39,523 nucleotides of DNA from Deltaproteobacteria bacterium. Its GTDB lineage: Bacteria > Myxococcota_A > Bradymonadia > REDH01. Below are positions 1 to 10,882 of the stretch, one piece after another. Positions within the stretch are counted from its first letter, which is position 1, and the number at the start of each line of letters is the position of its first letter. The stretch is from positions 1 through 39,523 of the forward strand of contig REDH01000093.1 in the NCBI GenBank assembly GCA_007693585.1. Direction: 5' to 3'. The notes beneath the pieces are model-generated. The model saw nothing but the letters and a program-made list of their open reading frames with translations. It made no database searches and was not told the DNA's origin. Made by a program: the position numbers and the translations under genes.

Positions 1-414
1 GCACTCCGCCCCCTCCACCCCGGCGAGGACCTCCACCTCCTCGGACTCCACATCGAGTCCGCCCCCGTCCGGCACCACCCCTCCTCCATCGGCTGGCGCA
101 TCACCCTCCCCAACCGCGCCACCCTCGCCTGGCCCGGCGACACCGGCCCCTGCGACGCCCTCCCCCACCTCGTCCGCAACGCCTCCCTCGCCGTCCTCGA
201 ATGCGGATTCCCCGACGGCACCCCCCTCGAAGGCCACCTCACCCCCTCCGCCATCCTCGACGCCATCGCCGAGAACCCGCCCGACCAGCTCGCCATCGTC
301 CACCGCTACCCCCTCGCCCTCCACGACGACACGCTCCTCCCCCGCCTCCGGGAGCGCGCCCCCTGCCCCGTCCTCGCCCCCGACGACGGACACCTCTTCC
401 CCCTCCTCCCCTGA
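1..414 (+). CDS. Metallo-beta-lactamase-fold hydrolase, C-terminal part (5' end outside window)
   Basis: The reading frame is open from base 1 and stops at TGA 412-414, giving 137 residues of a longer protein. The visible part has a GDTGP segment (residues 53-57) followed by a strand ending in LECGFPDG and then GHLTPSAI. This order (Asp metal ligand, then a His in an HLT/HST-type motif) is typical of the RNase Z-like branch of MBL-fold hydrolases. The zinc-binding HxHxDH motif would lie upstream, outside the window, so substrate and exact family cannot be named. The Smr-domain gene starts only 7 nt after the stop, so the two are probably co-transcribed. Third codon positions are almost all C. 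Confidence 0.7.
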   Translation, partial: ALRPLHPGEDLHLLGLHIESAPVRHHPSSIGWRITLPNRATLAWPGDTGPCDALPHLVRNASLAVLECGFPDGTPLEGHLTPSAILDAIAENPPDQLAIVHRYPLALHDDTLLPRLRERAPCPVLAPDDGHLFPLLP

Positions 415-421
415 CCCCCAC

Positions 422-1351
422 ATGGCCGCCCGACGCCGAAAGCGAGGACCACAGGACAACGGAAGGAAGGGGGCCTCCGCGGGCACCGCCGACCGATCCG
501 GCTCCTCCCAGGACCTCGGCTCCCTCGGCCACGCCCTCCGCGACGCCGGCCTCCAGCCCGACCCGCCCCGCGGGAAGAAGGGGAAGAAGCGCAATGCTGC
601 CGCGCCGGCCCCCGTGAACGCCCCCGCGCCGATCGTCCCGGAGCCCGCACCCGCACCGCCCCCGCCGCGCGCCCTCTCCCCCGAGGAGGCCATGGCCCTT
701 GCCTTCGAGCGCCTCGATGACCCCACCGCCTGGGACGCCAAGTTCGGCGGGAACGTCGCCAGCCCCCTCGGCGACGACGTGGAGATCGTGGACCCGGGCT
801 CCGGGGAGACCCCGTCGACCGCGGACGTCCCCGACGACGACCGGGAGGGACCGACCGACGACGACCTGCTCTTCCTCGAGGCCGTCGGCACCGACGTGCG
901 CCGCATGGACGACCGCCGCGCCGCGCTCGAGCGCCACAGCTTCGTCGGCATCTCCTGGCACTCCGCCCGACAGCTCGACACCCTCTCCGCCGCGGACCTT
1001 CACGAGCCCACCCTCGATGGCGCCCAGCGCGACCTCCTGCGCCGCTCGCGCCGCACCCGCGAACCCATGCCCGTGCTCAACGTGCGCCACCTGCGCCGCC
1101 GCGAGGCCCTCGGCGAGATCGAAGCGTTCGTGCACCACCAGCGCCGGGAAGGGGTGCGCTTCACCCGCGTCGTCACGGGCAAGGGGCGCCAGTCCCGTGA
1201 CGGCGAACCCGTCCTCAAGCCCGCCCTGATCGCCTGGTGTGCCGGCGCCGGCGAGGAGCACGTGCTCGGCTGGGCCCCGGAGACCGACCAGAGCGGCCGG
1301 TATGGCAGCATCGTCCTGGAGTTGCGCGCATGGATGCGTTCGAAGACCTGA
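422..1351 (+). CDS. Smr-domain protein
   Basis: 309 residues. The N-terminal half is low-complexity: a basic stretch (residues 1-60), an Ala/Pro linker (about 60-85) and an acidic segment. The C-terminal ~95 residues match the Smr (small MutS-related) domain: VLNVRHL in place of the usual LDLHG motif, a helix with EIEAFVHHQ, the strand RFTRVVTGKG (the conserved HGKG site reads TGKG here), then VLKPALIAW and a final YGSIVLEL strand. Smr domains bind or cut nucleic acids, often branched DNA or RNA. The changed LDLHG and HGKG histidines may mean altered or lost nuclease activity. The ATG lies 7 nt after the upstream stop, and the 3' end overlaps the next gene by 22 nt, so the three genes look like one operon. 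Confidence 0.75.
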   Translation: MAARRRKRGPQDNGRKGASAGTADRSGSSQDLGSLGHALRDAGLQPDPPRGKKGKKRNAAAPAPVNAPAPIVPEPAPAPPPPRALSPEEAMALAFERLDDPTAWDAKFGGNVASPLGDDVEIVDPGSGETPSTADVPDDDREGPTDDDLLFLEAVGTDVRRMDDRRAALERHSFVGISWHSARQLDTLSAADLHEPTLDGAQRDLLRRSRRTREPMPVLNVRHLRRREALGEIEAFVHHQRREGVRFTRVVTGKGRQSRDGEPVLKPALIAWCAGAGEEHVLGWAPETDQSGRYGSIVLELRAWMRSKT

Positions 1352-1752
1352 CCCCCGCCCGCATCGAGGCCCGGATCGCCGAGCTGCGCCGAAGCCACGT
1401 GCCCGACCCGCGGCTCGACGAGAACTACGCATGCGAGGGCTGCCGCGGTGTGCGGGGCTCGACCTTCTGCGTGCGCTGCGAGGACTGCTGGCGCTGCTCC
1501 TACTGCACCGACTGCCGGGCGTGCACCGGCTGCACCCACTGCGCCGAGTGTGCGGACCTGCACGACAGCAGCCACTGCCGGCAGAGCGTGCGGTGTGTGC
1601 GCAGTGCCTTTCTGGTGCGCTGCGAGGACTGTGTGGACTGCGTCCACTGCTTCGGCTGCGTGGGGCTGCGGGGGCAGGAGTTCCACCTGTTCAACGAGCG
1701 GGTGACGCGCAAGGAGTACTTCGAGGCGCTCAGGGCGATGGGCTACCGCTGA
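1330..1752 (+). CDS. Cysteine-repeat protein (Cys every third residue)
   Basis: 140 residues starting at an ATG inside the end of the Smr gene (22-nt overlap). The first 30 residues form a charged helix. Then come 19 cysteines: residues 35 and 38, ten in unbroken C-x-x-C spacing from 47 to 74, then 83 and 89, and five more from 98 to 110. The tail reads GLRGQEFHLFNERVTRKEYFEAL, where a conserved-looking block follows the Cys array. I recall similar Cys ladders followed by an xxYxxFNxxxxxxEYF tail in poorly described bacterial proteins, some mis-annotated as CaiB/BaiF. No enzyme motif is present. Multi-zinc or iron-sulfur binding, or a stacked Cys-ladder fold, is possible, but no function can be given. 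Confidence 0.75.
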   Translation: MDAFEDLTPARIEARIAELRRSHVPDPRLDENYACEGCRGVRGSTFCVRCEDCWRCSYCTDCRACTGCTHCAECADLHDSSHCRQSVRCVRSAFLVRCEDCVDCVHCFGCVGLRGQEFHLFNERVTRKEYFEALRAMGYR

Positions 1753-1778: not shown

Positions 1779-4700
1779 TCAGAACGTGTAGCCCACGTTG
1801 AAGTGGAGGCGGCCCGCGCCTTCGCCGGGGCGGCGGTCGAGGGCGATGCCGTAGTCGACGACGAGGGGGATGAGGTCGGCGATGAGCCAGCGCAGTCCGA
1901 AGCCGGTGCTCCAGCGCAGCTCGTCGGCGGAGAGGTCGCCGAGGCTGCGGCCGAGCTGCCCGGTGTCGAGGAAGAGGGCGCCGTTGAGGCCCATGTCGCG
2001 CAGGAAGGGGTAGCGGAGCTCGACGTTTCCGGAGACGAGGATGTCGCCGCCGAAGGCTTCGGAGCCGGGGGCCCGGATGGCGCCTTCGCCGAAGCCGCGC
2101 AGGGAGTTGACGCCGCCCAGGCGGAAGCGCTCGGAGAGGGGGAGGCTGTAGCCGTCGCGGGCGGGGCGCAGGCCGTCGGTGATCCCGCCGGTGGCGGCGC
2201 CGAAGCGGGCGTTGGTGCCGAGGACGAAGCCGCTGCGGCCGAGCGGGACGAACTGGCTGCCGCGCAGGGAGAACTTGGTGTAGCGGCGGGTGTTGAGGAG
2301 GCCGACGAAGTCGTCGGCGAGCTCGAGGGAGGTCTCGCCGAAGAAGCCGCGGGTGGGGTTGAGGGGGTTGTCTCGCCGCTCGAGGGTCAGGCGCGGGATG
2401 ACGGAGAGGATGAGGGCGCTGTCGAAGCGGTCGCGGAGCAGCTCGGGGTCGCTCTGGTCGCGGGAGGCGACGTGCCGGACGGTGAAGCCGAGCTGGAAGA
2501 AGAGGCCGGAGCGGCGCTGGAATTCCTGGCGGATGCGCAGGTCGAGCCCGGTTTGCCACTGCTGCGGGGTGGGGGGCGGAGCGAGCAGCTCGTAGTCCCA
2601 GAACAGCTCGGCGCGGGCTTCCCAGGGGCGGCGCAGCGCGCCGAACAGGCGGAACCGCGGGTCGAACCAGATGGCGCGCAGGGCTGCGTCGAACTCCTCC
2701 TGCGCGATGCGGGACGGGGTGAGGATGTCCACGTCGAGCTCGCCGACGAAGCGCAGCTCCATCGCGGATCCGAAGATGTTGATGTCGCGCCAGCTCACCT
2801 CGTTGGTCTGGAGGACGAGCACGTCGGAGAGGGCCTGCAGCCGGCCCTCGATTCCGACGCGGTAGTCCACGGATCGGTACGGCGTCTCCTCGAGGTGTAC
2901 GCTCACGACGACGGGCGGCTGCTCGCCTTCGGGGGCGTGCGCGTCCTCGCCGGGGTCCACGGTCACCATGCGCACGGAGTTGTAGAGCCCGAGACCGCGC
3001 AGGCTGGACTGCCCGGCGAGGAGCGCGCCTGCGTCGAAGGGGTCGCCGGGGGTGAAGGGGAGCTCGCGGCGCACGACGCCCTCGCGGGTGACATGGGTTC
3101 CGCGCACGAAGACCTCGCCGAGGGAGGTCGCCACCCGCATGTCGACGCGGTGCTCGAGGCGCACGGTCTGTCGCTCGTCCCGGGTGACCACGCGGCAAGC
3201 GGCCTCGGGGCGAAACAGGCGGCAGTCGTCGACGCGCACGCCTTCGGCCTCGATGCTGCTGCGGTGGCAAGCCTCGCGTCGCTGGGTGGCGAGGTTCAGG
3301 CGGCACTCGGCCGGGGGCACGGGCGGCAGGCAGCTCACGGCCCGGCCGCGGTCGTCGAGGCACACGGAGGTGACCTCGACCTGCCCCGCGCCGCGGCGCT
3401 CGTGGAAGGTGCGCAGGAGCTCCTGGTCGCGGACGAGCCCGGCCTGCGAGAACGGCTCCCCCGGGCCCATGGACAGGGAGGCGCGCTGGGTGTGGATGTC
3501 GTCGTCGATCCCGCGGACGGCGACGTCGGCGACGGTCGTGCGCGGCCCTTCGTCGACGAACACGCGCAGGTGCAGCTCGCGCCCGCCTCTCTCGGCGACC
3601 ACGACGACGCGCTCGACCCGCGCCGAGAGGTACCCGGTCTCGTGGAGCAGGGTCTGCAGGGTCCGCAGGTCGCGCTCCAGCAGGGGCCACTGGAGGTAGC
3701 CGCCCGGGCTGAAGATGCTGTAGGTGCGGGTCTCCCAGGCGTTCAGCACTTCGGACGTGCGCAGGGCCGTGAGTCCCTCGAAGGCGATGGACAGGAGCTC
3801 CGAGCGCACCCCTTCGTCCACCTGGAAGCGGAGCACGCGAAGGCCGTCGGGGTCGCGCCGCTGGGTCACGGTCACCTCGGCGAAGTAGTACCCCACTGCG
3901 GCGTAGCGGGACTCGATCTCGCGCGAGGCGACCCGCAGCTCCTCGTCGTCGATGATGCCGGACTCGTAGAAGCCGAGGCCCGAGAGCAGCTCCCGGGTGC
4001 GGAAGACCTCGTTGCCGGTGAACTCCACGCGCCAGCGTTCGCCCTCGCGGATCTCGAGGAAGAGGTGCGCGGTGCCGTCCTCGCGGTGCAGGCGGAAGCC
4101 CTGCCGCACCACGCGCGCCTGCAGGAAGCCTTCCTCGCGGTAGCGCCGGATGATGGCCTCCTGGGCGCGGAGGAACCGCTCGGCGGTGAACGCCTGGAGG
4201 AAGTTGAACTCGCCGAGCATCATGTCGCGGAGTTCCTCGTACGAGAAGTGCTCGTGGCCTCGGAGGTGAATGCGGTCCACGCGCAGGCGCTGCCCGGGGT
4301 CGACCCGGATCTGGACGTCCACGAGCCAGGGCGTGATCTCGCGCGTGGTGATCTCGACCTGCGCATCGAACCACCCCCGCCGGGAGAAGAAGTCGAGGAT
4401 CGCCGCCTCCTGACGCTGGGCGAGGGTATCCCCCGGGGGAAGGATCTGCCCGCGACGGAAGAGGAGGCGGCGGCGGATTTCGTCGCCGAGGGCGGTGGAG
4501 CCTCGCACGCGCACGCGGCGGATGAGGACGTGGGGGGTGAGGACGAACTCCACCGCCACCCCGTCGGCGGTGGATTCGGCGCGGGTCTCGACTTCGGCGA
4601 AGAAGCCGATGTCGGCGAGCACTCGCGCGGCGGCGGCGAGGGCGGCGGCGTCAACGGGGGCTCCGGTGGTCAGGCCGGTGGCGCGCGCGAGGCGCTCGGC

Positions 4701-5168
4701 GAAGGGGTGTTCCGGTGCGCAGCGGTCGAGCGGGCAGGTGATGCGGAGTTCCGCGAGCACGGCGCCCTCGGGGAGGGCGGGGGGTTCGTGGACATCGCCC
4801 TCGCGGTCGGGGGTCTGTTCGGGAGGAGCGGCCGGAGAGATGGGCAGGGGCTGGCCGGGCGCGGTCGGGTGGAGGGCGGCGGGGTCGGCGAGGACGGGGG
4901 AGGCGACGAGGAGGAGGAGCAGGGCGAGGGCCACTGGCGCGAGGGTCGCGGAGGCGGTCGCGAGGCGCTGCAGCGGTGTGGCGGCGGCGGGCGTGGGGGC
5001 GGAGACGGCGGTGCACGATGCGGCCGCGGGCCTCGCGGGAAGCCGCAGCCGAAGCGTGGCTGCGGGCGTGGGGACCCGGGGGGGCGTGGGGACCCGGGGG
5101 GGCGTGGGGCGCACGAGGCCGTGGGGCGCGTGGGGCCGGGGGTGCAGTTGCGGCGGTTGCGGCATCAT
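1779..5168 (-). CDS. BamA/TamA-type outer-membrane insertase with about seven POTRA domains
   Basis: 1129 residues; Omp85-family outer-membrane protein that should insert beta-barrels or work with TamB. A hydrophobic signal segment lies at about 72-94 (ending VLADP), after an unusually long Pro/Arg-rich N-terminus, so the true start may be further in. POTRA-like units sit at roughly 136-213, 214-291, 293-377, 378-454, 455-542, 543-677 and 680-762. The barrel runs from about 763 to the end, carries the SLRGFGEG lid-loop motif, and finishes with Phe as expected for a barrel signal. E. coli BamA has five POTRAs in about 810 residues. The sixth unit here carries a six-Cys insert (603-658). The ATG overlaps the tamB stop (TGATG), so the pair is translationally coupled. 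Whether it is the main BamA or a dedicated TamA cannot be decided from this window. Confidence 0.88.
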   Translation of the reverse strand: MMPQPPQLHPRPHAPHGLVRPTPPRVPTPPRVPTPAATLRLRLPARPAAASCTAVSAPTPAAATPLQRLATASATLAPVALALLLLLVASPVLADPAALHPTAPGQPLPISPAAPPEQTPDREGDVHEPPALPEGAVLAELRITCPLDRCAPEHPFAERLARATGLTTGAPVDAAALAAAARVLADIGFFAEVETRAESTADGVAVEFVLTPHVLIRRVRVRGSTALGDEIRRRLLFRRGQILPPGDTLAQRQEAAILDFFSRRGWFDAQVEITTREITPWLVDVQIRVDPGQRLRVDRIHLRGHEHFSYEELRDMMLGEFNFLQAFTAERFLRAQEAIIRRYREEGFLQARVVRQGFRLHREDGTAHLFLEIREGERWRVEFTGNEVFRTRELLSGLGFYESGIIDDEELRVASREIESRYAAVGYYFAEVTVTQRRDPDGLRVLRFQVDEGVRSELLSIAFEGLTALRTSEVLNAWETRTYSIFSPGGYLQWPLLERDLRTLQTLLHETGYLSARVERVVVVAERGGRELHLRVFVDEGPRTTVADVAVRGIDDDIHTQRASLSMGPGEPFSQAGLVRDQELLRTFHERRGAGQVEVTSVCLDDRGRAVSCLPPVPPAECRLNLATQRREACHRSSIEAEGVRVDDCRLFRPEAACRVVTRDERQTVRLEHRVDMRVATSLGEVFVRGTHVTREGVVRRELPFTPGDPFDAGALLAGQSSLRGLGLYNSVRMVTVDPGEDAHAPEGEQPPVVVSVHLEETPYRSVDYRVGIEGRLQALSDVLVLQTNEVSWRDINIFGSAMELRFVGELDVDILTPSRIAQEEFDAALRAIWFDPRFRLFGALRRPWEARAELFWDYELLAPPPTPQQWQTGLDLRIRQEFQRRSGLFFQLGFTVRHVASRDQSDPELLRDRFDSALILSVIPRLTLERRDNPLNPTRGFFGETSLELADDFVGLLNTRRYTKFSLRGSQFVPLGRSGFVLGTNARFGAATGGITDGLRPARDGYSLPLSERFRLGGVNSLRGFGEGAIRAPGSEAFGGDILVSGNVELRYPFLRDMGLNGALFLDTGQLGRSLGDLSADELRWSTGFGLRWLIADLIPLVVDYGIALDRRPGEGAGRLHFNVGYTF
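5066..5101. repeat. 18-bp tandem repeat, two units plus a partial third
   Basis: The + strand unit GCGTGGGGACCCGGGGGG occurs at 5066-5083 and 5084-5101, with the first 8 bases again at 5102-5109. It lies in frame within the extreme N-terminus annotated for the BamA-like protein and encodes a repeated Val-Pro-Thr-Pro-Pro-Arg on the - strand. It precedes the signal peptide, so it may be leader sequence rather than translated protein. Confidence 0.85.
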
Positions 5169-8100
5169 CAGTCCACCCGCAATCGGAAGCGGAAGCCGGC
5201 ATCGAGGGTGAAGCCCTCCTGTCGGCGGGACTGTTCGCGGACGTCCAGAATGAGCCAGTCGAGGAGCTTGTACTCGACGCGGAAGGTCTGTTCGTTGGAT
5301 TCTTCGGAGCCGACGCGGGCGTTGAGGGTCCAGGCGAGTCGTTCGGTGACTTCGTCGCGGATGGTGATCTCGGCGGCGCCCTCGGCGGTGGGGACGATGT
5401 CGACGTCGTCGACGTCGAGGCGCTCTTCGACGTTGCGTTCGACGGCCTCGATGACGGGTCGGAAGACGAGGTCGACGGTGGGGGCGCCGGCGGAGGCGGC
5501 GGTGAGCTCGTCGAGGGTGCAGCCGGTGAGGATGAGCGAGAGGAGGTCGCGCTGGTCGTAGAAGGGGGTGCTCTCGAGGACGAAGGCGACCTCGTAGGGG
5601 AGGCGTCCGTCGAGGTAGGCGGTGAGGAGGACGCTGTCGCCGGCGCCGATGTCCCGGCTGGTGGGGTCGACGCCGACGTTGAGGGTGTCCCGCTGTCGGC
5701 GGACGCAGGGGCGGATGGCGGCCTGCATTTCGGCGTCGAGGACGGGCATGGGGTAGCCTTCCTCGTCGCGGAAGCCGTCGAAGGCGAGGACGCCCCGGAC
5801 GATCTCGAATCGTCGGCCGCGGTAGTTGACGGTGCCGCCCTCGAGGATGTCGGCCTCGCCGAGGACAGTCATGGCGCGGAGGCGGTCGCGGACGACGAGG
5901 TCGAGCTGGAGCTCGAGCTGGAGGACGGCGCTGGCGACGCGGCTTTCGACGCGGAATCGGTCGCGCCCGGTGACGTTGAGGTCGAGGAGGATGGCGCCGA
6001 GTTCGGGGACGGCTTCCCAGACGGGGGGTTCGAAGCGCTGGGTGGGGCGGCGGAGTTCGCCGAAGGCGAGCTGGTCGCTGATGACGTCGAAGTTGCGGAA
6101 GTATCGGGCGTCCTGCACTTCGACGTCGCCGGAGAGGGACCAGGTTTCGGGGTCCTCGAAGGCCTCGGCGACGAAGCGGACGTCGGCGAGGAGCGTGATG
6201 ACGAGCTCGTTGGGGATGCGGTAGACGAGTCCGTTGACGAAGACGTCGAGGTCGGCGCCGTGGGGGAGGAGGCCCTGGAGGGGGATGCGTCCGGTGGCGA
6301 CGAAGTCGCCGCCGAAGAGGGTGCCGCGAACGGGGTCGTCGGGGAGGAGGAGGATGGCGTCGCTGGTCAGTTCGACGCGACCGGGTTCGAGGAGGACGTT
6401 GGTGCCGAGGCCGCGCGGAGCGACGCGGGCCTCGCCGAACTCGGCGAAGCCGTCGATGCGGGGTTCGGCGAGGGTGCCGTCGACGCGGATGCGGACGTCG
6501 GCGACGCCCTCGGCGTCGACGACGAGGTCGGGCAGCAGGCGCAGGAGGGCGAAGTCGACCTCGCCGTCGATGTCGAGGCCGAGGCGGGCGAAGTCGTCGA
6601 GGCTGCCCTCGATGCGGACTTCGCGTCCTTCGGTGGCGAGGGCGAAGTCCTCGAGGTAGAGCATGTGGGTTGCGGTGGTGTCTCCGGGGGACATCCGCCA
6701 GGCGACGACTCCGGGGCGGGGCATCGCGAACTGCTGGCTTCCGTCGCGAACGGAGAAGGAGAGGGCGTCGAGGGCGAGGATGGCGCCCATGGAGCCGGAG
6801 CCGCGGGGGTCCCAGGTGAAGGCGGCTTCCCCGGTCATGGCGGCGGTATCGAGCACACCGCGCAGCTCCTGGAAGTAGGACTGGGGCCGGAGGTCGGTGA
6901 AGTGGGCGGAGATCCAGGCGGGGCCTTCGCGAAGGGGGATGCGGCCCTCGATCATGAAGTCGCCGGCGAGGGCGCCCTCGAGTTCGAGACAGGTCTGACC
7001 GGTGTAGGGTGCTGGGCAGTCGAAGGTGTGGACGGTGGCCGAGAGGTTGGAGAGGGGCCGCTGCCAGAGGCGGATGCGGTCCGCGGTCAGCCAGCCGCGG
7101 ATGCGGGGCTCCACCCAGGGCCCGAGGGCGTCGACCTCCAGGCACAGGTCGGCCTGCAGCTCGAGGTCTGCCGCGTCGAGGGTGGAGAAGTCCTGCGGGC
7201 GAATGCCACAGGCCTCGACGCGGGCGTCCACGTGTTCACGCGCGAGGTCGAGCACGATCCGTCCGGCGGCCTCGCCGAGGCCCTTGCGCAGGGTGAAGTC
7301 CTCGATGGCGAGGAGGCCGGGACGCCAGGCGAGCGAGGCGTCGAGCCGCTCGATGGGTTCGCCGAGGACCAGCAGGTCCTCGGCCTCGACGCGGCCGTCG
7401 ACCTCCGGGGCCGAGGTGCGCCCCCCCACGGTGAAGGTACCGTCGAGGCGCGCCGCGAGGTCGACGTCGCGCACGAAGAACTCGAGGGCCACGTCATCGA
7501 CCTCGGCCTCGAACGCGAGAGCGGGGTCGGTGCGCACGCGCCAGGGTGCCCCGTCGAAGAGCCCGATCCGGCCTCGCGCGCGTGCGTTTCCTGCGCCGGA
7601 GGTGACGCGCAGGTCGTCGAGGTCGAGGCTGCGGGGTCCGGTGCGCAGGCGTGCGATCGCGTTGAACGCGGGAACGGCTCCGGTGGTCCGTTCGAGGGAG
7701 GCGGTCAGGGTCGAGTCGCCGAACACCGGGGAGTCGACCGGGCCGGAGACGGGGCCCGAGAAGCGGAGGGCAAGCCCGTCCGGCAGGGCCTCGACGCCCC
7801 AGCGTCGTGCCCAGGCGGCGAGGTCGTCGGTGTCCAGCAGGAGGCGACCGTCGGACAGGGAGCCGGCGACGGTGTCGAGGAGTCCGCCGAACTCGACGCG
7901 GGTGCCCGCGGCGCGCGCCTGCAGCCCGGGTGAGCCGTCGGCGAAGCCGATGCGCACGCGCCCGCGCTGGTCGAGCACGGCGGCGAGGTCGAGGCGGAGC
8001 GCACGCACGGGGAGGAGGGCGGGTACGCGGGGCCAGCGCACCTGGAGCCCGCGGATCTCGGCGCCGACCATCGGCGGCTGGATCTCCTTGTCCTCCGGCG

Positions 8101-9559
8101 TCGTCGCGGCGGGGGCCACCTCGAGCGCCTTGAGGGTGAGCGAGCCGTTCGCGTGAATCCCGGCCTCGGAGTCACCGGGAACGCACCGCGAGGGGGAGGT
8201 GAACAGGCGAGCATCGAGGAGCTCGTCCAGGTCGGCGTCGGAGTCTCCCGCCCACCAGGGCCGCAGCGCCTCGCGAACGGAGAGTCCGGCGGCACACAGG
8301 CGAAGGGACCAGTCGCCCGTGCGGGGTTCGAAGCGCCCGTTGCCGGTCACCTCGCCGCCCCACAGCCGAGCGCGGGCACCCTCGCCCAGCGTCACCACAC
8401 CGTCCACGAGCTGGAGATCCGCCTCGAACCGTTCCACCGGCCAGTCGAGGATCTGCAGGTGGTCGAAGGCAAGGCGGGTGCGGCCGTCGAAGAAGCGCAT
8501 GGTGCCGTACGCCTGGACGGGCAGCGGCTCGATGCGCGAGTCCGGCAACGCGGTGACCACCCCGGGCAGCGCCCACTCGAAGACGGGATGGTCCGGCGCG
8601 ATGTCGAGGGTCGCCCCGCCTTCCACGGTGAGGATGGCGGACTCGCGCTGCGGGAACTTCGGTCGCTCGGCGATGACCCTCACGCGACCGGTGGCGTCGA
8701 GCTCGGTCCCGGTCAGCGAGAACCGCGCGGCGTCGAACCCGAACCAGTAGTCCTCCCACAGGAAGCCGCGGATTTCGCCCGAGAACACCTCGAGTTCCAG
8801 CAGGCCCCGCTCGCCGGAGGACGGATCGGGCAACGGTTCGTGGGCGACCGACCACGGGTCGCGCGAGCGTCGTTGCTCCCAGAGCGCCGTCTCCCAGTCC
8901 GGGAGGCCCCCGCCCAGGTTCACCAGGCGCTCGGACACCACGATGCGTCCCCCCCGCACGTCGGCGGCCCCGACGGCCAGATGGAAGGAGCGGTTCGTGA
9001 TCTCGAAGCCCGCGTTGCGAAGATCCACGCCGTCCAGTCGAAAGAAGGCGTCCTCGAGGTTGATGAGGGCGTCGATGTTCTCGAGGGTGACGTTGGTGAA
9101 CCGGAAGCGCGGCGGGTTGTCGGCGAGTCCGGGCTCGCCGAACCGCCCCGTGAACACCTGCTCGATGCCGAAGTCCCCGTTCGGCAGCTCGTGCACCAGG
9201 ACCTCGCCGTCGCGGACCAGGCACCGATCGAAGCGCACGCGCCACAGCCCCAGCTCCTCCGGCCGGAAGACGCAGGTGGCATAGCGGGCGCGAATCGTCT
9301 CCCGTCCCTCCAGGTCACGAAAGTGCCCACCGAAGAGCTCCACCCGTTGCAGCGTGGGCCCGATCGCCACATGGGACACCGTGACGGCCCCCGGGAGGAC
9401 CCGGTCGAGCACGCCACCCACCAGCTCCGCCCCGGGTCGGGTATTGAGCCCGAGCACGACGGAAGCGTACACTCCCAGCAGCAGCATCACCGGCCACGAC
9501 AACAGGTAGCCGAGCGCGATCAGCGGAGAGAATCGATGGCGGCCCGAATCGGACTTCAT
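5168..9559 (-). CDS. tamB: TamB-like translocation/assembly module protein (DUF490)
   Basis: 1463 residues. A single N-terminal membrane anchor (about residues 14-37, after MKSDSGRHRF) is followed by a very long beta-rich stretch typical of the AsmA/TamB bridge-like lipid-transfer proteins. The C-terminal ~250 residues match the TamB domain: LPYEVAFVLES, RDLLSLILTG, the VDLVFRPVIEAVERNVEERL helix and a final strand ending FRFRLRVD. Such proteins span the periplasm and help deliver phospholipids or autotransporter-type cargo to the outer membrane. Its stop overlaps the start of the downstream Omp85 gene, matching the conserved tamA-tamB association. The first M of the longer frame (GTG-like starts up to 9616) was rejected because the anchor begins directly after the ATG at 9559. 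No clear Shine-Dalgarno sequence is seen. Confidence 0.85.
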   Translation of the reverse strand: MKSDSGRHRFSPLIALGYLLSWPVMLLLGVYASVVLGLNTRPGAELVGGVLDRVLPGAVTVSHVAIGPTLQRVELFGGHFRDLEGRETIRARYATCVFRPEELGLWRVRFDRCLVRDGEVLVHELPNGDFGIEQVFTGRFGEPGLADNPPRFRFTNVTLENIDALINLEDAFFRLDGVDLRNAGFEITNRSFHLAVGAADVRGGRIVVSERLVNLGGGLPDWETALWEQRRSRDPWSVAHEPLPDPSSGERGLLELEVFSGEIRGFLWEDYWFGFDAARFSLTGTELDATGRVRVIAERPKFPQRESAILTVEGGATLDIAPDHPVFEWALPGVVTALPDSRIEPLPVQAYGTMRFFDGRTRLAFDHLQILDWPVERFEADLQLVDGVVTLGEGARARLWGGEVTGNGRFEPRTGDWSLRLCAAGLSVREALRPWWAGDSDADLDELLDARLFTSPSRCVPGDSEAGIHANGSLTLKALEVAPAATTPEDKEIQPPMVGAEIRGLQVRWPRVPALLPVRALRLDLAAVLDQRGRVRIGFADGSPGLQARAAGTRVEFGGLLDTVAGSLSDGRLLLDTDDLAAWARRWGVEALPDGLALRFSGPVSGPVDSPVFGDSTLTASLERTTGAVPAFNAIARLRTGPRSLDLDDLRVTSGAGNARARGRIGLFDGAPWRVRTDPALAFEAEVDDVALEFFVRDVDLAARLDGTFTVGGRTSAPEVDGRVEAEDLLVLGEPIERLDASLAWRPGLLAIEDFTLRKGLGEAAGRIVLDLAREHVDARVEACGIRPQDFSTLDAADLELQADLCLEVDALGPWVEPRIRGWLTADRIRLWQRPLSNLSATVHTFDCPAPYTGQTCLELEGALAGDFMIEGRIPLREGPAWISAHFTDLRPQSYFQELRGVLDTAAMTGEAAFTWDPRGSGSMGAILALDALSFSVRDGSQQFAMPRPGVVAWRMSPGDTTATHMLYLEDFALATEGREVRIEGSLDDFARLGLDIDGEVDFALLRLLPDLVVDAEGVADVRIRVDGTLAEPRIDGFAEFGEARVAPRGLGTNVLLEPGRVELTSDAILLLPDDPVRGTLFGGDFVATGRIPLQGLLPHGADLDVFVNGLVYRIPNELVITLLADVRFVAEAFEDPETWSLSGDVEVQDARYFRNFDVISDQLAFGELRRPTQRFEPPVWEAVPELGAILLDLNVTGRDRFRVESRVASAVLQLELQLDLVVRDRLRAMTVLGEADILEGGTVNYRGRRFEIVRGVLAFDGFRDEEGYPMPVLDAEMQAAIRPCVRRQRDTLNVGVDPTSRDIGAGDSVLLTAYLDGRLPYEVAFVLESTPFYDQRDLLSLILTGCTLDELTAASAGAPTVDLVFRPVIEAVERNVEERLDVDDVDIVPTAEGAAEITIRDEVTERLAWTLNARVGSEESNEQTFRVEYKLLDWLILDVREQSRRQEGFTLDAGFRFRLRVD

Positions 9560-10882
9560 GCGCAGCACGGCGGCAGACGGCAGCGCACCGCACATGCGCG
9601 CGGCGCCCGGCGACACTACCCATCACCCGGCGCCGACCGCAAGCGCAGGACTCCACAGACGGCCCCGGACATCGGCCGCCGCGCCCTGGTCATTGCGCTC
9701 GCGGCCGCTCTCGCGCTCCTGGCGTGCCAGGACTTCTCCTCCGGCCGACTCGACCGGCAGGATGGACTCCAGCAGGGCACGTTCGGGCGCGACGATCGAC
9801 TCACCGCGGCCATCACGCCTGGCCGATTCCAGGCCGTGGACCAGCAACCCGACGGCTTTCACGTCTCGCTGAGAGCCAATGCGCCATGGCCATCCATCGT
9901 CCTCGTCAACGGGAACCCCACCAACGCCAGCCTCATCCTCCGCATCGACAACGCCGACCCGAACGCCGAGCGCACCGCCCGGCTTCGCCCTCTTGCCACC
10001 GAGGACCGCGCGGCTGCCGACTGTGCCCGCACCGACGCCCCCCCAATCGAGATCGCGCCGCCGCCACTGGACCCGATCCCCGGCGCCCCCGGCGCCCTGC
10101 GCGCCGAGGTGGTGATGCCCCCGTGTGCCCGCATGGAGCTCGACTTCGCCGTGCCGGGCGACCTCGCCGAGCTCCGGATCGCGGTCGTCGGCACCACCGA
10201 CGCCGACGGAGAGCGCCTGCGAAGGATCCTCGATGATGCCGAGCGCTGGGAGGCCCACCACGCCGTCTTTCTCGGTGGCATCACCCAGCCGCAGCGAGGC
10301 GAGGAACGCTTCGACCGCTTCCGATCGCTGACCGACAACCGCGCCCTGCCGGTGACCGCGCTCCCCGGGCCCGTCGAGAACCGCGCGGGTGTCGAGGCCT
10401 TTCAGCAGGCCTTCGGCCCCACCACCTTCCACCTGCGCATCGCCAGCCTCGACTTCCTCGCCCTCGACACTTCCGCAGGGACCCTCGCCGGGAACCAATT
10501 CCGTTTCGTGGCCGACCTGAGCGGCGTCATGGGCTCCGGCGGCCTGGCGTTCATGAGCATCCCGCCCATCGCGCCCGACGAAGCCGGTCTCCACGCGCTC
10601 CACAGCGGCCAGCAGGGAGCCCGGCTGCTCGAGAAGCTCATGGGCCTCCGGATCGAACACCTCTTCGCGTCCAACGGGCGCCACGACGCCAGCAGCCGGG
10701 TCGCCGACCTCACCATCCACCAGCTCGATGCGCGCGAGCGGGCCCGCTACGCGCGCGTCACCATCACCGACCCCTGGGGGATCGGGGCCTGCCCTGCAAG
10801 CCCGGAGGACGAGCCCGGCGCGCCGACGGCGCTCGATTGCCCACCGGGGCCGCACGTCAGGGTCCACAAGCACCGTCCCTGA
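9536..10882 (+). CDS. Lipoprotein with degenerate metallophosphoesterase-like domain
   Basis: The longest form has 448 residues. A lipobox (ALALLAC, Cys64 in this form) marks an exported lipoprotein. After a beta-rich N-terminal region, the segment from about residue 220 has the layout of a calcineurin-like phosphoesterase: a strand with VVGTTDADGE, then VFLGGITQPQRGEERF, then LPVTALPGPVENRAG, then FMSIPPIAP, and FASNGRHDAS. These sit where active enzymes have DxH, GDxxD, GNHD, H and GHxH. Nearly all metal ligands are replaced, so catalysis is unlikely and a binding role is possible. This assignment is inference from pattern only. The only in-frame ATG lies 23 nt inside the divergent tamB start, giving a 50-residue basic leader; a CTG near 9688 would give a normal signal peptide. 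Confidence 0.6.
   Translation: MAARIGLHAQHGGRRQRTAHARGARRHYPSPGADRKRRTPQTAPDIGRRALVIALAAALALLACQDFSSGRLDRQDGLQQGTFGRDDRLTAAITPGRFQAVDQQPDGFHVSLRANAPWPSIVLVNGNPTNASLILRIDNADPNAERTARLRPLATEDRAAADCARTDAPPIEIAPPPLDPIPGAPGALRAEVVMPPCARMELDFAVPGDLAELRIAVVGTTDADGERLRRILDDAERWEAHHAVFLGGITQPQRGEERFDRFRSLTDNRALPVTALPGPVENRAGVEAFQQAFGPTTFHLRIASLDFLALDTSAGTLAGNQFRFVADLSGVMGSGGLAFMSIPPIAPDEAGLHALHSGQQGARLLEKLMGLRIEHLFASNGRHDASSRVADLTIHQLDARERARYARVTITDPWGIGACPASPEDEPGAPTALDCPPGPHVRVHKHRP

Follow-up and report, generated by a model that had tools for sequence, protein, structure and literature searches.

A predicted twelve-residue beta-solenoid with a cysteine-lined core in Myxococcota

A 39,523-nucleotide stretch of contig REDH01000093.1 from a Deltaproteobacteria bacterium (the window) encodes a 140-residue protein whose Cys residues all fall in a single three-residue phase. 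We put at about 0.5 the probability that this small protein, which is probably cytoplasmic, folds as a beta-solenoid of seven turns with a packed and largely reduced thiol core and acts as a binding or docking scaffold. Four side chains per turn, mostly Cys, would point inward, and their small reduced thiols would pack in four stacked columns, two of which tolerate Ser and two Leu. This arrangement would make a stiff rod without need for metal or obligate disulfides. The rod would expose a flat stripe of stacked Tyr, Phe and His residues, one per turn, and would end in a conserved cap (CFGCVGL...FHILN...R..YF). Stripe and cap would be the likely binding surfaces, either for self-dimerisation or for a partner, and the docking scaffold is possibly tied to translation.

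Results

The Cys-ladder gene and its repeat

The frame at 1330–1752 (Table 1) looks coding, both from its G+C content by codon position (0.63, 0.53 and 0.93 at positions 1, 2 and 3) and from the 24 relatives that align across nearly the full length of its product. An initial reading of this DNA, made from the sequence alone (the sequence-only reading), had described an unbroken run of ten Cys at exact three-residue spacing and 19 Cys in 140 residues. The translation bears this out, and the ladder is longer than that description implied: all 19 Cys (residues 35, 38, 47, 50, 53, 56, 59, 62, 65, 68, 71, 74, 83, 89, 98, 101, 104, 107 and 110) lie in one phase modulo 3. Shuffling the whole protein 200,000 times gave period-three Cys runs of 7 at most, compared to the 10 observed, and shuffling residues 35–110 alone reached a run of 10 in 2 of 200,000 cases. 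Where the phase positions from 35 to 113 are not Cys, they are Val, Ser or Leu only.

The underlying repeat is 12 residues long, x-[Y/F/H]-C-x-x-[C/S]-x-x-[C/L]-x-x-[C/S]. Broken into 12-residue lines starting at residue 33, the window protein reads x-[aromatic]-C-x-x-C-x-x-C-x-x-C, with some of the slots predicted to face inward filled by Val, Leu or Ser. Between residues 45 and 118, 7 of 10 aromatic or His residues fall at repeat position 2, a concentration that 100,000 random rearrangements of the non-Cys residues never matched. The five-residue period of a pentapeptide repeat protein is absent; the observed period is three within 12.

Table 1. Positions in the window of the Cys-ladder gene, its parts and its upstream neighbours.
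Feature	Position	Strand	Basis or remark
MBL-fold hydrolase, C-terminal fragment cut by the window edge	1..414	+	Pfam Lactamase_B_2, E 4.9e-8; open frame
Smr-domain protein, upstream	422..1351	+	Pfam PF01713, E 5.4e-11; end overlaps the Cys-ladder gene by 22 bases
Cys-ladder protein gene	1330..1752	+	140 aa; ATG start; stop included
N-terminal helix, residues 9-22, outside the solenoid	1354..1395	+	DSSP on the AlphaFold model
Predicted solenoid, seven 12-residue turns, residues 33-116	1426..1677	+	Predicted strands, rung table and composition per rung position
Unbroken ten-Cys run, residues 47-74	1468..1551	+	Cys positions in the translation
Near-invariant C-terminal turn and cap, residues 107-133 (CFGCVGL...EFH-N...EYF)	1648..1728	+	Conservation in 127 members

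Predicted fold

The window protein was modelled by AlphaFold with 51 sequences, and its relative from Myxococcus xanthus was modelled separately with 59. These two sets (A2 and A4) were chosen by hand from the window protein and 75 extracted proteins; five loci whose start was not found (L027, L072, L073, L075 and L080) are absent from both and present in the 127-domain set used below. The window model has strands at residues 69–72, 81–84, 93–96 and 105–108, and the M. xanthus model has strands starting at 43, 55, 67, 79, 91 and 103. Mean pLDDT was 82.0 and 79.6, respectively, with most solenoid blocks above 90. In the window model, the 10-residue blocks from 41 to 100 were at 94 or higher, the N-terminal part was at 73 (residues 1–10), 82 (11–20) and 60 (21–30), and the cap region was weakly predicted (55–72, residues 111–140).

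In a second-look structural alignment, the M. xanthus model matched the beetle antifreeze protein 1EZG with Z 11.1 and an rmsd of 2.6 over 81 of 82 residues, and the next unrelated fold scored Z 5.7. The best match of the window model was 1L1I (Z 6.8, rmsd 3.9, 83 residues), effectively tied with unrelated beta-helices at 6.0–6.4. Foldseek alone found no PDB match below E 0.001; its PDB list was led by pentapeptide-repeat proteins (E 0.0055, TM 0.25 or lower), which were set aside. A profile search of PDB sequences placed 1EZG first (E 0.0012), with the repeats in register; this match carries a bias of 37 bits and may reflect composition rather than common ancestry. As a single sequence, the M. 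xanthus relative gave no match up to E 1.

The models thus predict a beta-solenoid of 12 residues per turn, coiling like the beetle antifreeze protein. The stacked, helix-like ladder that had been proposed from the sequence is supported by this prediction, in which both models place strands 12 residues apart and the best match is the beetle protein. From the period, the register with that protein (TmAFP) and conservation, we infer that repeat positions 3, 6, 9 and 12 point inward, and that the aromatic or His residue at position 2 (Ala in the first turn) points outward.

Family membership and spread

No Pfam or NCBIfam model, of a zinc ribbon, a zinc finger or any other family, matched the window protein at E up to 10. 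A Pfam scan of 51 members gave a single match, to AAA_lid_12, which was marginal (E 0.095) and unrelated. PADLOC had no match for the Cys-ladder protein, its Smr neighbour or the M. xanthus relative, and a reading as part of a defence system was dropped on this basis. No paper recognisable as describing the family was found in the open-access full-text literature. Pfam, NCBIfam and that literature are therefore consistent with the earlier statement that the function is undescribed, and none of the three yielded a characterised zinc-ribbon relative, which the sequence-only reading had named as the result that would count against it. PHROG 15341, a group with no known function, does match residues 33–110 (E 1.7e-9). 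With no Pfam or NCBIfam match, routine annotation is likely to miss the protein.

A relatives search gave matches in 38 of 57 genomes, including the window's own, and none in five further genomes from the same family as the window, a result shared by the phylum scan. In that scan, 109 of 377 sampled genomes matched at E 0.001; strong matches (at least 117 bits) were found in 84, the window's included, with one strong match per genome. The remaining 25 score below 90 bits and may reflect composition, and at least one of them is a fragment at a contig edge. The window protein itself scores 164.5 bits against the family profile over profile positions 4–134, and carries both the ladder and the cap residues common to its relatives. 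A scan of genome contigs with the single sequence gave 19 pattern matches, none of which was confirmed, and the profile scan gave 344, of which 284 were confirmed. The best 80 of these 284 loci include Myxococcus xanthus, Corallococcus, Anaeromyxobacter, Minicystis and Lujinxingia.

Outside these genomes the matches are weaker. Of 113 pattern matches in viral contigs, none was confirmed. By tblastn, ladder-only matches were found in Campylobacter, Vibrio and Flavobacterium phages (6 records), and by Foldseek four predicted viral structures in BFVD matched at E 0.001 or better, one of them named 'Caib/baif family protein'. Cys-ladder proteins resembling these are probably also common in genomes of the Candidate Phyla Radiation, where they would be annotated as 'caib/baif family protein'. 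Plasmids gave one weak match, in Campylobacter.

The match on Campylobacter fetus plasmid pCfviMP1 (L179:4001-4291) is mostly missed by the listed genes. The gene annotated in Flavobacterium phage FL-1 (L177:4001-4355) does not share the frame of the ladder match and translates to a VAPIAP repeat; of these two frames, one is probably a shadow. The tree places the gene on contig L060, labelled Comamonas sp. KCTC 72670, together with Myxococcus, and this record is probably mislabelled. Nine relatives of family f33 (L136–L144) lie in open frames of 235–593 residues. Two of these (L137 and L144) have tails of about 300–360 residues that look low-complexity. Fusion partners were dropped as a functional clue; Pfam, run on these two, gave nothing.

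Conservation of the ladder and the state of its thiols

Conservation was analysed in 127 members, comprising the window protein and all non-identical domains among 174 loci (several of which are the same place fetched twice). Almost every core Cys is in ladder phase (2,422 of 2,423). The longest ladders have 17 Cys in a row at three-residue spacing (19 of 127 members), and relatives contain up to 23 Cys; the window protein is not extreme. Position 6 is Cys or Ser in 872 of 889 cells and position 12 in 720 of 762, and the other two columns are Cys or Leu, position 3 in 778 of 889 cells and position 9 in 842 of 889. Over turns 2–7 these four positions have entropies of 0.75–0.96 bits. Outward position 2 is similarly constrained (0.92 bits; Phe, Tyr or His in 842 of 889 cells), compared to 1.8 bits at position 1 and 2.2–2.7 bits at the other outward positions.

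Odd and even Cys totals are about equally common, with 67 odd and 60 even among the 127 members when counted over the matched domain, and 29 and 22 (51-sequence set) or 32 and 27 (59-sequence set) over whole proteins. That ladder Cys exchange with Ser and Leu, and that odd totals are as frequent as even ones, points to a packed thiol core rather than to fixed metal sites or obligate disulfides. The N-termini bear on this too. Most of the 51 sequences have no hydrophobic stretch there (median best 10-residue hydropathy 0.36), although one relative (L097) does, and this crude check suggests that the proteins are probably cytoplasmic. As Ser and Leu are suited to buried packing, and as most members lack a hydrophobic N-terminus, we read the Cys as packing the core mostly in reduced form.

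These data also bear on whether disulfides might instead staple the solenoid, in a protein that folds in an oxidising compartment. The predicted fold and register, shared with the beetle antifreeze protein, would fit this. For the related beetle protein DhbAFP, PMC8038014 describes activity only after dialysis, which its authors read as Cys oxidation, and a model in which the 2nd and 8th Cys are assumed to pair. One disulfide per turn should give even totals and joint loss of the partners. Neither was observed: besides the many odd totals, same-turn changes at positions 3 and 9 coincided 0 times against 2.2 expected in a small test (62 sequence pairs, 300 shuffles). Weak excesses in the co-change analysis, one at separation 9 (20 against 14.6, reached in 4% of shuffles) and others in some neighbour classes, where z did not exceed 2.3, were given no weight, as 31 classes were compared. 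Obligate disulfides are thus not favoured, the general absence of a hydrophobic N-terminal stretch is also against them, and we consider this explanation unlikely.

The capped end is nearly invariant. C107, C110 and N122 are present in all 127 members, G112 and F118 in 126, and H119 in 111. Together with the conserved aromatic stripe, this leads us to read stripe and cap as putative working surfaces. It could also be taken to mean that C107-F-G-C110 with H119 and N122 forms the working site of a redox or thiol enzyme or sensor, for which the ladder is mere support, and the variability of most other ladder positions would fit. However, the cap residues may simply serve to cap the fold, the model has low confidence there, and Pfam and NCBIfam gave no match to a catalytic family; we rate an enzyme or sensor as unlikely, on a par with the stapled solenoid.

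The sequence-only reading had suggested, as one possibility, a carrier of multi-metal clusters. In such a carrier the inward Cys would bind a series of metals (Zn, Cu(I) or Fe-S) along the interior of the tube. The very high density of thiols in a single stacked geometry, and the runs of up to 17 Cys in relatives, would fit it, and seven Cys (38, 41, 44, 89, 104, 107 and 110) are near-invariant in the family and could still make one local site. But fixed sites should conserve their ligands, and the ladder residues vary. For most ladder Cys, some members have Ser or Leu instead; over all ladder cells, Ser (505) and Leu (381) make up the bulk of the non-Cys residues, Asp occurs once, and His and Glu do not occur. 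The window protein lacks two of the near-invariant Cys: it has V41, where 123 of 127 members have Cys, and S44, where 116 do. In addition, the model of the same 12-residue repeat in a beetle antifreeze protein, as described in PMC8038014, assumes an inner core filled by 2-8 disulfides. The suggestion therefore did not hold up as a first choice, and we judge it a poor candidate, behind both the stapled solenoid and the enzyme or sensor.

A further and still less probable idea is that the tube, lined by up to four stacked thiols in each 12-residue turn, is a core that can be loaded or switched. It might take up Cu(I), Zn or sulfane sulfur along its axis, or convert free thiols into a row of disulfides on oxidation; the rod would then be a sensor or store, and the cap would report to a translation-linked partner such as Dtd. 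Ice binding was rejected because the Thr face is missing, [Y/F/H]-C-x standing in place of Thr-x-Thr, and it is very improbable despite the fold match to TmAFP and a partially matching Vibrio phage protein annotated 'insect antifreeze protein'; relatives occur, moreover, in M. xanthus and other Myxococcaceae, which are not known as cold specialists.

Gene neighbourhoods

In the window, the Cys-ladder gene starts within the final codons of the Smr-domain gene, which itself follows the cut MBL-fold gene. On the opposite strand, a gene whose product has five POTRA stretches and an Omp85 domain ends 26 bases past the stop of the Cys-ladder gene. Ahead of it in this minus-strand region (1779-9616) is a 1,482-residue frame that looks TamB-like.

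Across the family, neighbours vary between clades. At least 500 bases were available downstream in 126 of 127 loci and upstream in 122. A recurrent neighbour is a gene for D-aminoacyl-tRNA deacylase (dtd), directly downstream on the same strand and 3–78 bases past the matched domain in 32 of 127 loci; four examples were confirmed by Pfam Tyr_Deacylase. These 32 loci are spread over several separate groups of the tree, with eight parsimony changes over 127 rows (FastTree, built on few columns, with the window on a long branch and its placement unsure). A conserved uncharacterised protein of about 200 residues is directly upstream in 22 of 127 loci (for example L103:5273-5983 and L094:5303-5929), with no Pfam match in the three tested. 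All 22 are in a 35-row tree group that also holds many of the dtd-linked loci.

The Smr and MBL-fold neighbours remarked on in the sequence-only reading are present in the window, but Smr is not a family trait: a related domain is close upstream in 5 of 127 loci, and the four other than the window fall within one clade of 16 from its class. The M. xanthus locus has neither dtd nor Smr nearby, and has an RNA-methyltransferase-like gene on the other strand. In the window's draft genome, dtd is on another contig. The recurrence of dtd, and of Smr in the window's class, suggests that a partner of the putative scaffold may have a part in translation or in RNA quality control.

Discussion

The data above predict the fold of a beetle antifreeze protein, minus its ice face, in a single-copy protein of many Myxococcota (84 of 377 sampled genomes). 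These include M. xanthus, for which laboratory genetics is available. A protein of this kind, probably cytoplasmic, would have to hold as many as 23 Cys together in its core, possibly as free thiols, and still not aggregate.

Three known systems resemble parts of this design. Repeat Cys of the Listeria protein InlJ reportedly form a 'novel cysteine ladder', according to a 2008 paper. InlJ differs in being built of leucine-rich repeats, and it is an LPXTG protein with a suggested role in adhesion (PMC7291126). The ice-nucleation protein of Pseudomonas borealis differs in having serine and glutamine ladders, and repeats longer than the 12-residue Cys-ladder repeat, and is a computed model. Its internal ladders are of small residues, and an exposed Tyr ladder is proposed to make the dimer (PMC3196904), to which the aromatic stripe of the Cys-ladder protein would be comparable as a dimer face. 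Phage proteins share Cys-x-x-Cys ladders with the window protein, namely gp032 of Campylobacter phage CP220 (tblastn E 2e-5), the 'Caib/baif family protein' of Campylobacter virus IBB35 and PHROG 15341; the BFVD structure H6SUK4 matched with Foldseek E 5.8e-7 and TM 0.31. The phage tblastn matches cover 47–66% of the query, and composition could inflate their scores.

The closest likeness of the predicted fold is to TmAFP (1EZG, 1L1I; repeat TCTxSxNCxxAx), which also has 12 residues per turn and an inward residue at every third position. A profile–sequence alignment sets ladder positions 3, 6, 9 and 12 against C2, S5, C8 and A11 of its repeat. In contrast to TmAFP, all four inward columns of the Cys-ladder family can hold Cys, Cys totals may be odd, and the proteins are bacterial; the 12-residue beetle repeat is stated not to be found in bacterial antifreeze proteins (PMC8038014). 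The family also has an extra N-terminal helix and a conserved C-terminal cap, and an aromatic or His stripe where TmAFP has its ice face. The Cys-ladder family, new to Pfam, NCBIfam and the open-access text searched, is thus best described as a predicted solenoid of the TmAFP type with a core that can be Cys throughout and a different face.
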